Shown: in pieces, positions 12,336 to 31,048 of the stretch
How the letters are laid out: each line of letters begins with the position of its first letter
How positions within the stretch are numbered: position 1 is the stretch's first letter
Assembly: GCA_016200965.1 (NCBI GenBank)
Contig: JACQDT010000006.1
Coordinates: 1-49,351, forward strand
DNA: 49,351 bases
Source: Candidatus Azambacteria bacterium
GTDB taxonomy: Bacteria > Patescibacteriota > Minisyncoccia > GWC2-36-17 > WO2-46-25
Direction: 5' to 3'
Notes under the pieces: generated by a model
What the model saw: the letters and a program-made list of their open reading frames with translations, nothing else
Told to the model about the DNA's origin: nothing
The model's database searches: none
Translations under genes and position numbers: made by a program

Positions 12336-13068
12336 CTAGTATATGTTTGAATCTATAAAATGCTGGATGGGTCGAGTAAGTGGCGTGAAATAATGTTACG
12401 CCGTCTAAGTTTTCAATATCGGGGTTTGAAGTTTCACTGATTTGCATATATTTCTCCTTTGGAAAAATAAACAGTTCTTCTTTTACTAAATATTTTGTAA
12501 GCGCGACTGCTAATGCGCCTTGTTCATCATGATGGGTCTGTTCTTTATCTTTTACATTTTCTTGCCACCAGCCCAATTCTTTAACCAAATCTTCTGAAAT
12601 ATCACTTCCAGCTTTTTGTATAAATAATCCAGCGTTTACAAAGGGTGTATCTGAATTAGCTTTTCTATGCATTGCACCGTGTTGGTAGGACTGACCGCAA
12701 AATTCATCTAAAATGGCAAATTTTAATATAGTGTTAGACAGAAACGCGTCGATTTCTTCGGGGTAATTTAATAAAAATACATCGGAATCTATATAAAGCT
12801 CATCTTGTCTAATATCCAATCTTGGTGAAGGGCACCACTTCCGCCATGTTGCCTTAGAAGTAACACAAAACCGTGAATCCGGTTTTAATGGGAACCTCCT
12901 AACATCTATTCCCGTCTTTAAGTGTTTTGAAACAAAACTGGGATTGTCTGTATAAACTATATACTGATGGTTGTTATCGAACTGCTTTTTAAAAGAAAAA
13001 ATACTGTAACGAAGCAGTTCAATATTTTTTAATACATGCTCTCCCCAAATTGACCATCGAAAAATCAT
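12280..13068 (-). CDS. GT-A fold glycosyltransferase-like protein
   Basis: 262 residues. MIFRWSIWGEHVLKNIELLRYSIFSFKKQF resembles the start of GT8/galactosyl-like transferases in layout, and ELYIDSDVFLLNYPEEID (about 90-107) contains the DxD metal and sugar-nucleotide site. HHDEQGALAVAL (about 178-189) is a further conserved-looking acidic patch where the acceptor or catalytic residue often lies. No membrane segments. It overlaps the preceding GT4 gene by 4 bases (ATGA-type) and the following GT2 gene, so translation is coupled. The donor sugar cannot be predicted. The family assignment is by fold pattern only. Confidence 0.65.
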   Translation of the reverse strand: MIFRWSIWGEHVLKNIELLRYSIFSFKKQFDNNHQYIVYTDNPSFVSKHLKTGIDVRRFPLKPDSRFCVTSKATWRKWCPSPRLDIRQDELYIDSDVFLLNYPEEIDAFLSNTILKFAILDEFCGQSYQHGAMHRKANSDTPFVNAGLFIQKAGSDISEDLVKELGWWQENVKDKEQTHHDEQGALAVALTKYLVKEELFIFPKEKYMQISETSNPDIENLDGVTLFHATYSTHPAFYRFKHILDEILYEKTSQKYRNDKRS

Positions 13069-15890: not shown

Positions 15891-16775
15891 CTGTAAGAAT
15901 ACCTCGCGTTGTTCACACTTTAGCATTCTTGCGATAAAGTGGGAACAATATGAAGATTCACAAATCTACACGGCTTCTTCCAGCCCAACGGAAGGAAATA
16001 GCCGCCAGGTACTTTCAAAAAGGGGTTCGCATAGCTACGCTGTCCCGTGACTACCGGGTCAGTCGTAACAGCATCTACAACATACTCAATCGTGCCCGTA
16101 GCAATGACTTTAGCATCCATCCAAGCACGAACAAGCGGTACCGGTGCTTGGCATACGGGCTGAAGCGTCTGGCTAAGGTGGAAGCGGAGCTGGAACGCAG
16201 ACTCAAGCTTCAAGCCAAACGCTACAACAAGAGCTACCCGGGAGCAATGCTCCACTCGGATACCGCTCTGCTGCCCATCCTTGACGGAGAGACGGCCCTT
16301 GCCAAGCGAGAGACGCTCTACGTAGCGATTGATGACTTTTCAAGAGAGCTGTATGCGGCTATCACCCCGGATCGTACCCAGTATGCCTCGGCTTCATTTC
16401 TGAAGCAGGTTCTCGAGGAATGCCCTTACACCATTGAGTGGTACACTGATAACGGGACAGAGTACAAGGGCAATCCCAAAGAGCACGAATTCATGAAGCT
16501 GTGCGCCGAGCATGGTATCAAACAGTCCCATACGAGGCCCAAGACACCCAGAACGAACGGCAAGGCAGAACGAGTGATCAAGACCTTGAAGCAGATGTGG
16601 CATGAGAAGACCCGCTTCAAAAGCAGAGCGCACCGCAAGCAGGAATTGGTAAGGTTCGTAAACTACTACAACACCGTCAAGCCACACAAAGGAATCAACA
16701 ACCTAACACCCATGGAACAATTAATTAACTACTTTTATCCACAAAAACTGTGAACAACGCGGTTAAATCTTACAG
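15891..16775 (+). mobile_element. IS481-like insertion sequence
   Basis: 885 bp bounded by inverted repeats: left 15891-15917 (C plus TGTAAGAATACCTCGCG and on to TTGTTCACA), right 16749-16775, about 22 of 26 identical. One transposase gene fills it. No clear target duplication is seen. Its right end coincides with the first base of a truncated serine recombinase, so insertion or a later deletion at this edge removed most of that gene. Confidence 0.8.
15950..16753 (+). CDS. IS481-like DDE transposase
   Basis: 267 residues. The N-terminus (about 10-50) is a helix-turn-helix with LSRDYRVSRNSIYNILNRA. The rve integrase core carries D104 (MLHSDTA), D167 (WYTDNGTEY) and E207 (NGKAERVIKTLKQMW) as the DDE triad. 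PHKGINNLTPMEQL near the C-terminus is the usual closing motif of IS481/IS3 transposases. The length is slightly short but complete, with start and stop well inside the inverted repeats. It is read against the adjoining island genes. The element is likely functional or recently so because the frame is intact. Confidence 0.88.
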   Translation: MKIHKSTRLLPAQRKEIAARYFQKGVRIATLSRDYRVSRNSIYNILNRARSNDFSIHPSTNKRYRCLAYGLKRLAKVEAELERRLKLQAKRYNKSYPGAMLHSDTALLPILDGETALAKRETLYVAIDDFSRELYAAITPDRTQYASASFLKQVLEECPYTIEWYTDNGTEYKGNPKEHEFMKLCAEHGIKQSHTRPKTPRTNGKAERVIKTLKQMWHEKTRFKSRAHRKQELVRFVNYYNTVKPHKGINNLTPMEQLINYFYPQKL

Positions 16776-21681: not shown

Positions 21682-21758
21682 GTGAAACTTGAAACCTAAA
21701 GCATGAAACATAAAACAGAAAATAAAAAAACGCTTCACGCTTCACGCTTCACGCTTCA
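21682..21758. repeat. Heptamer repeat arrays around the first pseudopilin start
   Basis: Five degenerate heptamers of the GTGAAAC/ATGAAAC kind (21682-21716) are followed by four perfect CGCTTCA copies (21731-21758). The second array is roughly the inverse complement of the first. The pilin ATG at 21703 and much of its leader peptide lie within these repeats. Confidence 0.65.
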
Positions 21759-22596
21759 TGAGAAGGGTTTCACTCTCGTAGAGTTGCTGGTTTCAATCGC
21801 TGTGGTGGCGACGATAAGCGCGTCGCTTTTTGTCGGATACGGCACCGCTTCGCGTAATTTTGATCTCAAGACTAACGCGTTTAAATCGCTTGACGTGTTG
21901 AATCTCGCGCGCACGCGGACGGCCGCGTCTTTAGGGGCTTCAAGCTACGGCGTTCATTTTGAACAGACGCAGTATGTCCTTTTCAAAGGCATAACGTACA
22001 CCGTCGGAGATCCCAACAATATTGTGTATGCGCTTTCCCCGACGGTGGAAATCGCGAACATATCGCTTGCGGGAGGAGGAGTTGATGCGGTATTTGATCG
22101 CATCACGGGGAAGACACCGCAGTCAGGCACGTTTCAGATGCGTTTGGTAAGCGATACTTCCAAATTAAGGACGATTCAAATTCTCGCCTCGGGCAGGTCG
22201 GATATTACGGAAAGTGCGCTCGATCCCTCGGGTACGCGTTTGTTCGACACGAGGCATGTGCATTTCACGTATGGACAGAGTATCGCATCGGTGGCAAATC
22301 TAGTACTTACTTTTCCTAATGACTCCGTAACGCAGAACGTTACTTTTTCCACATACTACAGCGGCGGCGTGTTTGATTGGTCGGGGACGGTCACCGTGAA
22401 CGGGTCCGCGCAGGTATTGCGCGTGCATACGCACGCCACAAGCGGCTCGTCCGCTGATTTTTCCGTGACGCGCGATTTGCGGTATAATAATAAAGCGCTC
22501 AACATTTCTTTGGATACGGTGAGCATGGTGAATTATGCAGCCGACGGAACAGTAAGCGCCGGTCCCATATGGATATCCAATCTGCAAGCACAATGA
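21703..22596 (+). CDS. Type IV pseudopilin (prepilin-like, GspH/FimT-like)
   Basis: 297 residues. The prepilin peptidase site is HEKG/FTLVELLVSIAVV, with Glu at +5 of the mature form and a hydrophobic helix of about 20 residues. The positively charged leader of about 22 residues includes TLHASRFTLH, which is encoded by CGCTTCA heptamers. The C-terminal part is a beta-rich head with no cysteine pair. It is the first of three minor pilins in a row. It overlaps the next gene by 4 bases (ATGA). Role: minor pilin initiating assembly or forming the tip. Confidence 0.85.
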   Translation: MKHKTENKKTLHASRFTLHEKGFTLVELLVSIAVVATISASLFVGYGTASRNFDLKTNAFKSLDVLNLARTRTAASLGASSYGVHFEQTQYVLFKGITYTVGDPNNIVYALSPTVEIANISLAGGGVDAVFDRITGKTPQSGTFQMRLVSDTSKLRTIQILASGRSDITESALDPSGTRLFDTRHVHFTYGQSIASVANLVLTFPNDSVTQNVTFSTYYSGGVFDWSGTVTVNGSAQVLRVHTHATSGSSADFSVTRDLRYNNKALNISLDTVSMVNYAADGTVSAGPIWISNLQAQ

Positions 22597-23072
22597 GACA
22601 TGTTTTTCAAAAAGGAATCGGGTTGATTGAAATCGTCATCGCGATCTTCGTGATTTCCGTATCCCTTTTTGCCGTGATACAGCTTTCGGTGTTTGCGCTT
22701 AAAGCCACGGCTGATCGCAACGACAAAGCAAAGGCGGTGGTGTTCGCCCAAGAGGGCATGGAAGCGGTACGCAACATACGCGACGGGAGCTGGACGAACA
22801 ACATCGCGACGCTCACGTTCGGAGCGACGTATTATCTTACCGTTTCGGGAAGCCAGTGGGCGCTCACGCAGACCAATCCCGGGGCGCTTGACGGAAAATT
22901 TACGCGTACCATCATGATCGCCAATGTGTCCCGCGATATCAACAGCAATATTGTCAGCGCGGGAGGCACCGATGACGCATCCACGAAAAAGGTTACGGTC
23001 ACCGTGTCGTGGAGCACGCCGGCAAAGAGCGTTCAGCTGGTCGCGTACCTTATGAATATTTTGAAAAATTAG
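22593..23072 (+). CDS. Type IV pseudopilin (PilV-like)
   Basis: 159 residues from the ATG at 22593, chosen because it overlaps the previous stop (ATGA) and leaves a short leader, MRHVFQKG, before the cleavage site G/IGLIEIVIAIFVISVSLF. Glu5 is present. QEGMEAVRNIRDGSW (about 50-64) is the usual PilV-type alpha-helix continuation. A beta-rich domain completes it. Minor pilin of the cluster; the next gene carries a palindromic insert in its leader. Confidence 0.85.
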   Translation: MRHVFQKGIGLIEIVIAIFVISVSLFAVIQLSVFALKATADRNDKAKAVVFAQEGMEAVRNIRDGSWTNNIATLTFGATYYLTVSGSQWALTQTNPGALDGKFTRTIMIANVSRDINSNIVSAGGTDDASTKKVTVTVSWSTPAKSVQLVAYLMNILKN

Positions 23073-23082
23073 TGGTATACCA

Positions 23083-23913
23083 ATGATTTCAATGCAACCG
23101 CCGAGGGTTTCCCAAAGAAAAACGTCGCGAGGCCGAAGCGGGCAGGGCGCCCTCTGTCCCCGTCCTCTTGTTCAATCCGCCGGCCGCTCCAGCGGCGGCC
23201 TTGCTTGTCTCCGCAACGGCGAGGTTTTGGCAACGCTTCGCGCATTATACCAAAACCACCCAGCTCGCCTGCTCCGAAGATTTCACAAGAGGACGGGGAC
23301 AGAGGGCGAGCGAAGGCTGACGCCGAGCATTGATTTTCTCGCTGGGAAAATCAATGCGTCTTTTCGTGGGAAACTCTCGGCGGTTGTGAAGAGCAGAGGT
23401 TTCACGCTTATTGAAACATTGGTGTATGTCGCGCTCGTAAGTATTGTCGGGGGCGCGCTTACCCTTTTTCTGATTAACAACATGCACGCGTATAGCAAAG
23501 TAGAGGCGCGCCAGAATGTGTTTAATAATGTAAACGATGTGCTTAAACTGATCGCCGACGAAGTGAAATACGCGACAGGCATATATACCCCCACCAGCGC
23601 ATTTGATTCCGACAGCGGCCAGCTTTCTTTAGAAACCGCGCTGAATGCGCCGGCGGGGGAAAACACGACCTACGTGGATTTTTACATTGATAACGGGAGG
23701 ATATATGAAAAGCGCGAAGGCCAAAGTTCCTCTGCTTTGACGTCCGAACGGGTGTTCGTGGAGCGATTGCGGTTTGGGCAAAAGACCGCGACCACTACAC
23801 TGGATTCCATTTCTACCGATGTTCAAGCGCGAATTAACACCGCGAGCGTAAAGTCGGAAGATCAGGCGCGCGTCGCGCTGACATCCAGCGCTTCATTAAG
23901 GGGTGCGTATTAA
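23083..23913 (+). CDS. Type IV pseudopilin with an in-frame palindromic insert in its leader
   Basis: The open frame of 276 residues begins MISM at 23083, then runs about 98 codons through a palindromic element (23095-23386), and only then reaches KSRGFTLIETLVYVALVS, a standard prepilin cleavage site and helix. Excising the element and one flanking TG joins ATGATTTCAATG to AAGAGC, giving MISMKSRG/FTLIETL, a normal leader. An alternative GTG start at 23386 at the element's right edge would give 175 residues. Mature protein is the same in both cases, about 170 residues. Minor pilin of the type IV pilus; whether it is expressed and processed is open. Confidence 0.75.
   Translation: MISMQPPRVSQRKTSRGRSGQGALCPRPLVQSAGRSSGGLACLRNGEVLATLRALYQNHPARLLRRFHKRTGTEGERRLTPSIDFLAGKINASFRGKLSAVVKSRGFTLIETLVYVALVSIVGGALTLFLINNMHAYSKVEARQNVFNNVNDVLKLIADEVKYATGIYTPTSAFDSDSGQLSLETALNAPAGENTTYVDFYIDNGRIYEKREGQSSSALTSERVFVERLRFGQKTATTTLDSISTDVQARINTASVKSEDQARVALTSSASLRGAY
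23095..23386. mobile_element. Palindromic element inserted in a prepilin gene
   Basis: 292 bp, bounded by CAACCGCCGAGGGTTTCCCA and its inverted copy at 23367-23386 (19 of 20), with an inner perfect 24-bp inverted repeat (23148-23171 and 23285-23308). TG flanks both sides and is the likely target duplication. Together, 294 bases are added, a multiple of three, and there is no stop in the reading frame. Comparable to palindromic elements known to insert in genes of Rickettsia, though sequence relation is not implied. Confidence 0.7.
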
Positions 23914-29403: not shown

Positions 29404-29478
29404 CCCTCCGTAGCTTAATGGATAAAGCAGCGCTCTTCTAAGGCGTTGATGGGGGTTCGATTCCCTCCGGGGGGACCA
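29404..29478 (+). tRNA. tRNA-Arg (anticodon TCT)
   Basis: Acceptor CCCTCCG/CGGGGGG, D-stem GCTT/AAGC, anticodon loop CTTCTAA, T-arm GGGGG TTCGATT CCCTC, encoded CCA. The 3' half overlaps the antisense end of a serine recombinase gene, and its 3' end is partly repeated at 29564-29579. Confidence 0.9.
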
Positions 29479-31048
29479 GATGGTGCGGGGCAGGTGCCGC
29501 AGCGTTTCTTTGTAGGTTCGACTTGCCCCGTATAATCCGAGCGGAGCGAGGAGTTGTGCGGGGTTCCCTCCGAGGGGACACTTTAGAAAAAGGCAAACCA
29601 GAGGAAGCCGCCTCGCTTCGCTCGGCGGCCAATTCGTATTGAATTTTGGGGGCAAAAACAAATTGGCGGTTTCGCAAAATATGGTTCGCGCCGATGTTTT
29701 TCAGAAATGTTGTCATTTTTGGATAATCATTTTCGGCAAGCAGGTTTTCGGCTTGATTCAAGGATAAAACGAACTCGCGAGCCGGTTCGAGCCACGACAA
29801 ACCTTTTTGCTCAAAATCGGTAATTTTCTCCTGCAAGCGGATTTTTTCCGCCACCAGTTTTTCTTTTTTGGCGGCGTATTCTTGTTGAATAAGCGTGTTG
29901 TCCAAATACACATCGAGAAGTTTTTGGATTTTTGCCTCAACTTGGGATAATTGGTTTTTCGAAATATCAATTTCAGCCTTGGCTTCCTGTTTCGCACTCT
30001 CTTGCTCTGTTTCCAACGCCGCCAGAACTTTTTTCGTGTCGTAGCTCGACAAAGAAACTTTTTGAAGAAATGTTTTGATTTGTTCGGCTAGCTTGTTTTC
30101 TTGAATGTAATGCTTTTCTTGGCACGCACCTTTCTTTTTGGTGCAACGGTAGTAAGTGTAAATCCCGCCGTTACCTTTTGCGTATTGCGCGGTGATACTT
30201 GCTCCGCATGAGGCGCATTTCATCAAGCCAAGAAAAGCAAAATGATGTTTCTTCACTTCCTGCACTCTGCCGCGCTTGGCCATAACTTCTTGGCACAAAT
30301 CAAAAAGTTTCTTTGAAATTAACGGCTCGTGCGTTCCCTCAAATGTCTCGCCTCGGTATCGCATAAGTCCGTAGTAAAATGGATTTTGTAAGAGATGCTG
30401 AACATTGCTCACCGAAATTTGTTTGCCAAGATTTCCCCTCAAGCCGTTTTCCTTGCACCAATTTGCGAGAGAAATGAATGTGTAATTTCCGGTGGCGTAA
30501 AGCTCAAAAAGTTTTCTGACCCTTGGAGCTTTCTCTTTGTCTACATCAATACCTCGTGTTTTTGGGTTGTTGAGATAGCCAATCGGAGCCCAGCTTGGCC
30601 AAACCCCATTCCTGATTTTCTGCCTTAAACCTCTTTTTACATTCTCTCGCAAATTGTCCACGTAGTATTTACTCTGTCCAAAAGCAATGTTCAGCATAAA
30701 TAATCCTTGCGGCGTGGGCTCGCACCAAAACGTTGGGAATTTGAGGGAACGAATCAAGCCGCGGTCAATCATATGGATTATTCTTCCGCCATCCACGCTA
30801 TTTCGAGCAAGACGATCCGGGTGCCATGAGAGTATTCCCTCGGCCTTTCCTTTTTCTAAAAATGACAACATTTCTGCGAATTTAATTCGTCCGGGTTCTT
30901 TTGCGGTATTGGCCTCTTGGAGAGAGGCAATAATTTCAAGTTTTTCTTTGGCGGCAAATTCCTGAAGCTCAACAAGTTGAGCTTGAATGGAGAGAACTTG
31001 TCTGTCATCATCTTCCGTTGATTTGCGAGCGTAGATTACATAACGCAT
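29438..31048 (-). CDS. Large serine recombinase (integrase)
   Basis: 536 residues. The catalytic domain starts MRYVIYARKSTEDDDRQVLS with the active Ser10, and WHPDRLARNSVDGG carries the arginine cluster. The recombinase domain follows (about 160-250), then a zinc ribbon (CASCG and CTKKKGACQEK, about 285-320), a coiled coil (about 345-420) and the tail DFEQKGLSWLEPAREF. The last 100 or so residues come from the 29576-29674 inverted repeat, then two antisense tRNA-Arg stretches, ending PPEGIEPPSTP inside the tRNA gene. The recombinase thus completes its reading frame in its tRNA target. It probably mediates integration at tRNA 3' ends. Confidence 0.85.
   Translation of the reverse strand: MRYVIYARKSTEDDDRQVLSIQAQLVELQEFAAKEKLEIIASLQEANTAKEPGRIKFAEMLSFLEKGKAEGILSWHPDRLARNSVDGGRIIHMIDRGLIRSLKFPTFWCEPTPQGLFMLNIAFGQSKYYVDNLRENVKRGLRQKIRNGVWPSWAPIGYLNNPKTRGIDVDKEKAPRVRKLFELYATGNYTFISLANWCKENGLRGNLGKQISVSNVQHLLQNPFYYGLMRYRGETFEGTHEPLISKKLFDLCQEVMAKRGRVQEVKKHHFAFLGLMKCASCGASITAQYAKGNGGIYTYYRCTKKKGACQEKHYIQENKLAEQIKTFLQKVSLSSYDTKKVLAALETEQESAKQEAKAEIDISKNQLSQVEAKIQKLLDVYLDNTLIQQEYAAKKEKLVAEKIRLQEKITDFEQKGLSWLEPAREFVLSLNQAENLLAENDYPKMTTFLKNIGANHILRNRQFVFAPKIQYELAAERSEAASSGLPFSKVSPRREPRTTPRSARIIRGKSNLQRNAAAPAPHHLVPPEGIEPPSTP
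29564..29579. repeat. Partial copy of the tRNA-Arg 3' end (att-like)
   Basis: TTCCCTCCGAGGGGAC here matches TTCCCTCCGGGGGGAC at 29461-29476 in the tRNA at 15 of 16 positions, 103 bases apart and in the same orientation. This resembles the duplication next to tRNA-Gly. Confidence 0.5.
29576..29674. repeat. 99-bp inverted repeat, left copy, flanking the recombinase
   Basis: GGACACTTTAGAAAAAGGCA to the GGCGGTTTCG end is identical, base for base, to the reverse complement of 31094-31192. It includes part of the coding sequence for the recombinase C-terminus. Confidence 0.85.

Follow-up and report, generated by a model that had tools for sequence, protein, structure and literature searches.

A type IV pilin gene in a member of the Parcubacteria from groundwater is interrupted at its start by a palindromic insert, which we take, with good if incomplete confidence, to belong to a dispersed family of non-autonomous mobile elements; the gene would have survived through a disposable leader and a new GTG start codon. 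The host genome (866 kb) was assembled from a metagenome and is broken into 42 contigs, and the window referred to below is the whole stretch of 49,351 nt that was analyzed. As the original prediction had it, a 292-bp palindrome (23095–23386) and a repeated TG add up to 294 bases (23095–23388), and the reading frame across them contains no stop. Its further claim, that exact removal restores the prepilin leader, was borne out by joining the flanks: the product, MISMKSRGFTLIETLVYVALVS, reads MISMKSRG/FTLIETLVYV (the slash marks the prepilin peptidase site), which is a canonical class III leader.

The pilin locus and its relatives

The features of the window that are discussed here are as follows.
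22569–23072, + strand: upstream pilin-like gene of the same operon, with its stop 10 nt ahead of the ATG at 23083
23083–23094, + strand: pre-insertion start region ATGATTTCAATG, with ATG at 23083 and 23092; orthologues begin 0–10 nt past the upstream stop
23083–23913, + strand: the prepilin frame with the insert included, 276 codons and a leader of 106 residues
23386–23913, + strand: the prepilin frame beginning at the junction GTG, with MKSRG as leader and FTLIETLVYV opening the mature protein; match to Pfam N_methyl
23095–23386, + strand: palindromic structured element, outer module plus nested inner module; sense strand suggested by the G.U bias
23095–23114, + strand: left arm A of the outer stem, pairing with 23367–23386
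23113–23151, + strand: conserved 5' block of the outer module, CAAAGAAAARCGTCGCGAGGCCGAAGCGGGCAGGG (profile match)
23158–23298, − strand: inner module, covariance model R1 (built on the + strand); orientation suggested by the G.U bias
23303–23373, + strand: 3' block of the outer module, with a hairpin at 23327–23357 (loop TCGCTGG); model R2
23367–23386, + strand: right arm A' of the outer stem, pairing with 23095–23114
23387–23388, no strand: second TG copy (the first is 23093–23094), forming a GTG codon with element base 23386
15892–16774, + strand: IS481-like element (rve transposase 15950–16753) with inverted ends TGTAAG...CTTACA

Pilin orthologues are present in the order, and those of G001, G002 (a family-level relative of the host), G003, G006, and G008 are uninterrupted, in agreement with the predicted insertion. 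In G003, G006, and G008, the pilin ATG lies 0 to 10 nt past the upstream stop, and it is therefore the start region of the gene that has been interrupted in the host. The start in G006, ATGATTAAAAAGAACAGAGGA/TTT, resembles the host sequence ATGATTTCAATG followed by AAGAGCAGAGGT/TTC. The pilin leaders of G001 and G002 are longer and built largely of short simple repeats, an independent pointer to loose constraint on this stretch. Prepilin leaders made of short in-frame repeats (such as CTTCACGCTTCACG or AAGCTATAAGCTATAAGC) were also noted at 21703–21769 in the window and at L048, L050, and L166. Elsewhere in the window, 29438–31048 reads as a putative large serine recombinase gene.

The insertion is supported by these orthologous pilin genes lacking the insert, together with copies of the element at unrelated sites and in other genera. 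The idea that the 98 codons simply belong to the pilin protein has the open frame in its favor; it is refuted by the relatives, which do not carry the segment, and the 106 residues, which match intergenic DNA along the inserted segment, contain no Pfam family. We give this idea practically no credence. The 98 residues are thus not a conserved protein segment of the relatives, and the many palindromic copies found in the genome agree with what had been foreseen for a mobile element.

Structure and covariation of the element

The outer arms of the window copy (CAACCGCC...) are paired at 19 of 20 positions and joined by one G.T at the remaining one, and a second pair of arms (23148–23177 and 23279–23308) is nested within them. 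As single-stranded DNA, the region folds with −100.4 kcal/mol, compared with a mean of −58.2 for shuffled sequences (z = −9.5; none of 100 shuffles reached this value). Arms and apical stems differ in sequence in most copies while their pairing is kept, and the interior blocks are common to the copies. The inner module is probably an inverted second element of the outer kind, nested in the apical stem, because its motifs GCWGGGTG and AGCGGAG and its loop TCGCTGG align with those of the outer module when reversed. A kissing interaction between the conserved loops CCAGCG and CGCTGG was considered and dropped, as several copies lack the match.

Covariation was assessed on 45 distinct inner-module sequences, in an alignment that was fitted to the model and hence leans towards the structure. 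In this set, 93.5% of the cells are paired and 38 of 40 pairs have changed on both sides. The covariation score is 0.724, compared with 0.181 after shuffling and 0.10 to 0.14 when the alignment is slid; given the effect size and the sliding control, a chance origin is implausible even for a model-fitted alignment. The mismatches in the arms are biased as well, G.U outnumbering A.C by 13:3 for the outer module on the + strand and by 28:10 for the inner module on the reverse strand, a reading direction that was chosen after the data had been seen. Pooled, this gives 41 G.U against 13 A.C (p = 2e-4).

Covariation and a wobble bias of this size on one strand could also point to a functional structured RNA, either a cis-regulatory leader or a small RNA, that controls the pilin operon rather than being a neutral passenger, and the sense strand suggested by the bias is that of the pilin gene both in the window and at a second pilin-like gene (on contig C17, described later). 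We regard such a role as unlikely, however, since elsewhere the element occurs in either orientation (judged by inspection) and often runs antisense to adjacent genes, copy number ranges from about 26 down to 0 between genera, and none of the six loci tested matched an Rfam covariance model. The covariation itself could reflect selection at the level of the element for mobility.

Copies, spread, and mobility

At the DNA level, 31 stretches of the host genome match the element. With models and profiles, 26 outer 3' modules were detected, along with about 15 inner modules, of which three are truncated at contig ends. Nearly all copies are intergenic and at unrelated sites, the genic ones being those in the prepilin gene and in the start region of the pilin-like gene on contig C17. 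With the covariance model, which scored few candidates per genome, 26 out of 384 genomes from the class, belonging to 22 genera, proved to contain inner modules, and distant matches have similar folds. A literature search returned no description of this family. Viral contigs gave no match to one exact pattern, a narrow test for carriage by phages.

By inspection, most other copies lack a matching 2-bp repeat, and TG duplication was accordingly rejected as a general target signature. Candidate target duplications are TG at two sites and possibly TATAAGG at the ends of contigs C2 and C21, and none is constant. Near-identical, recent copies that run TGTAAGATTTCC ... CTTACA and have differing flanks are present at five left and five right ends of contigs. 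At least five such copies ending in TGTAAG/CTTACA thus share their arms in different surroundings, so the element moves together with its arms; copying of the arms from the target is ruled out for this subgroup, the same arms being present at five or more sites. These recent copies with IS481-like ends, at least five in number, break the assembly at contig ends.

The ends of this recently multiplied subgroup are terminal inverted repeats of the same kind as those of the IS481-like element in the window, and the subgroup appears, from its ends, to behave as a MITE of that element. That the element as such, window copy included, is a remnant MITE moved by the IS transposase is unlikely: TGTAAG ends are missing from the window copy and from the majority of the others, and the same module occurs within many unrelated arms. 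The missing TGTAAG ends, and the lack of any transposase-type target duplication beyond the TG, also count against our preferred reading of a dispersed mobile element, as does the fragmented state of the assembly.

Among known systems, prokaryotic MITEs such as ERIC, Correia, and RUP (PMC10969869) are similarly short, non-autonomous, intergenic, and present in many copies with inverted arms, and one subgroup here is MITE-like in sharing its ends with a resident IS. Unlike these MITEs, the window family has copy-specific, covarying arms, is conserved in its interior rather than at its ends, and has no constant target duplication. The pneumococcal BOX, RUP, and SPRITE clusters (PMC10969869) also contain elements inserted in one another, whereas nesting here takes place at the apical stem and yields a larger hairpin. 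REP sequences and their associated Y1 transposases offer a further parallel, being palindromic and extragenic, and the host genome holds four Y1 genes; the size and structure of the window family differ from those of REP. The four Y1 (IS200-like) genes (L029, L030, L031, and L032) have short flanking palindromes of their own, and a Y1/REP origin was rejected, as their flanks hold these other hairpins and not elements of the window family.

The original prediction had likened the insert to the palindromic elements of Rickettsia (Ogata et al. 2000, 2002, cited via PMC10969869). The likeness holds in that the window family is palindromic and repeated, resides in a small genome, and has one in-frame copy. 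The Rickettsia elements measure about 150 bp, whereas the window family measures about 290 bp, lies nearly always between genes, encodes no conserved peptide, and is branched, nested, and strongly covarying. As shown later, a second family fits the comparison better.

Start codon, leader, and the second palindromic family

The last G of the element and the repeated TG form an in-frame GTG just before KSRG/FTLIE. The protein derived from this GTG matches Pfam N_methyl (E 1e-6) and has the features of a class III signal peptide, namely a hydrophilic leader ending in Gly, the FTLxE motif, and a hydrophobic tract. Given this in-frame codon at the junction, the pilin can be made without translating the leader of 106 residues. 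Counting against our account, the GTG sits where the stem closes and is not preceded by a clear Shine–Dalgarno sequence.

The alternative, translation from the ATG at 23083 through the palindrome and removal of the 106-residue leader by the prepilin peptidase, is possible, as ribosomes that have terminated at the upstream stop might reinitiate at this ATG, and we hold it to be a real though lesser prospect. The insert is 294 nt long, in frame, and free of stops, features that are compatible with read-through and to that extent speak against our preferred account, and the ATG matches the ancestral start position. An open frame is weak evidence of translation, though, because the family often has frames without stops: among 12 full-length, mostly intergenic copies, 11 of 72 frames (15%) are open, and across copies the frames differ, stops are frequent, and no encoded peptide is conserved. 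An in-frame length without stops would arise by chance in about 5% of cases (15% of frames times one third for length modulo 3), which makes the open frame seen here a modest coincidence. Nor does any other copy lie in a gene in the frame of the window copy, where coding conservation might be seen. Documented prepilin leaders measure 6 to 26 residues (PMC4471445), and one of 106 residues would be far longer; the junction GTG also makes read-through unnecessary.

Under the explanation that we favor, a non-autonomous Parcubacteria element forming a long branched hairpin would have inserted at a pilin start codon within a pilin operon. Since the prepilin peptidase would remove all residues ahead of the Gly/Phe site, the sequence of the leader would hardly matter, and the junction, element G plus TG, would have left a start codon directly before KSRG/FTLIE. 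Disposable leader and junction-made start codon together would be why the gene could survive. The pilin would now most likely be made from the GTG, or by GTG initiation mixed with read-through from the ATG at 23083, and the predicted mature pilin is identical from either start. On contig C17, an inner-only element is placed likewise at a PilX-like gene, whose orthologues in G002 and G008 are without it, and a possible start there is TTG AAT CAA GAG CAG GGT. Two insertions at pilin-like starts are thus each predicted to have left a usable start codon.

A second palindromic family, with the core CCAAGAGCNNAGCGATTGG, has 10 copies in the host genome and occurs in seven of nine genomes of the order. 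One copy, a 72-nt palindromic insert of about 24 codons, lies inside the leader of another prepilin (contig C36; L190 13409–14026), which reads MKRKKNKPRMLHA-(insert)-SRFTLHEKG/FTLLES, with no start codon between the insert and the cleavage site; a paralogue in the same operon, at 12846, has no insert. This case lends some weight to read-through in the window, as does a 24-codon in-frame palindromic insert, SLFVQERSDWQQTAVQRGHRQSRG, in a ribulose-phosphate 3-epimerase of the same genome (contig C34; L216 4071–4817). Neither the G002 orthologue nor the epimerases of solved structure have this segment. An Smc protein (contig C7; L174 10107–12185) likely carries a second-family element in frame near residue 330.

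The C36 prepilin, as read from its sequence, is an independent case supporting a leader that may tolerate insertions. The original view of the leader as an insertion-tolerant site thereby gains ground, and its suggestion that the window insert is itself translated does not, since the GTG makes MKSRG/FTLIE. Three prepilin-leader cases occur in this one genome, a number counted after the fact and hence given no statistic. Recurrent in-frame insertion into unrelated protein genes is found in the second family and not in the window family, and it is the second family that is the true Rickettsia-like case. A broader picture, in which one class-wide family of self-nesting, RNA-structured mobile elements has stems free to vary if paired, prefers palindromic or stem-loop sites including its own, and finds recurrent safe sites in prepilin leaders, is put forward tentatively and may well not hold in full.

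Streamlined Parcubacteria are generally expected to hold little selfish DNA. The structured palindromic family described here has about 26 copies in 866 kb, extends over 22 genera of the class, and has no Rfam entry. The window copy provides a clean case in which an operon gene may survive insertion at its start codon, and the second family, in frame within a core enzyme, would carry what is known from Rickettsia into a distant phylum.
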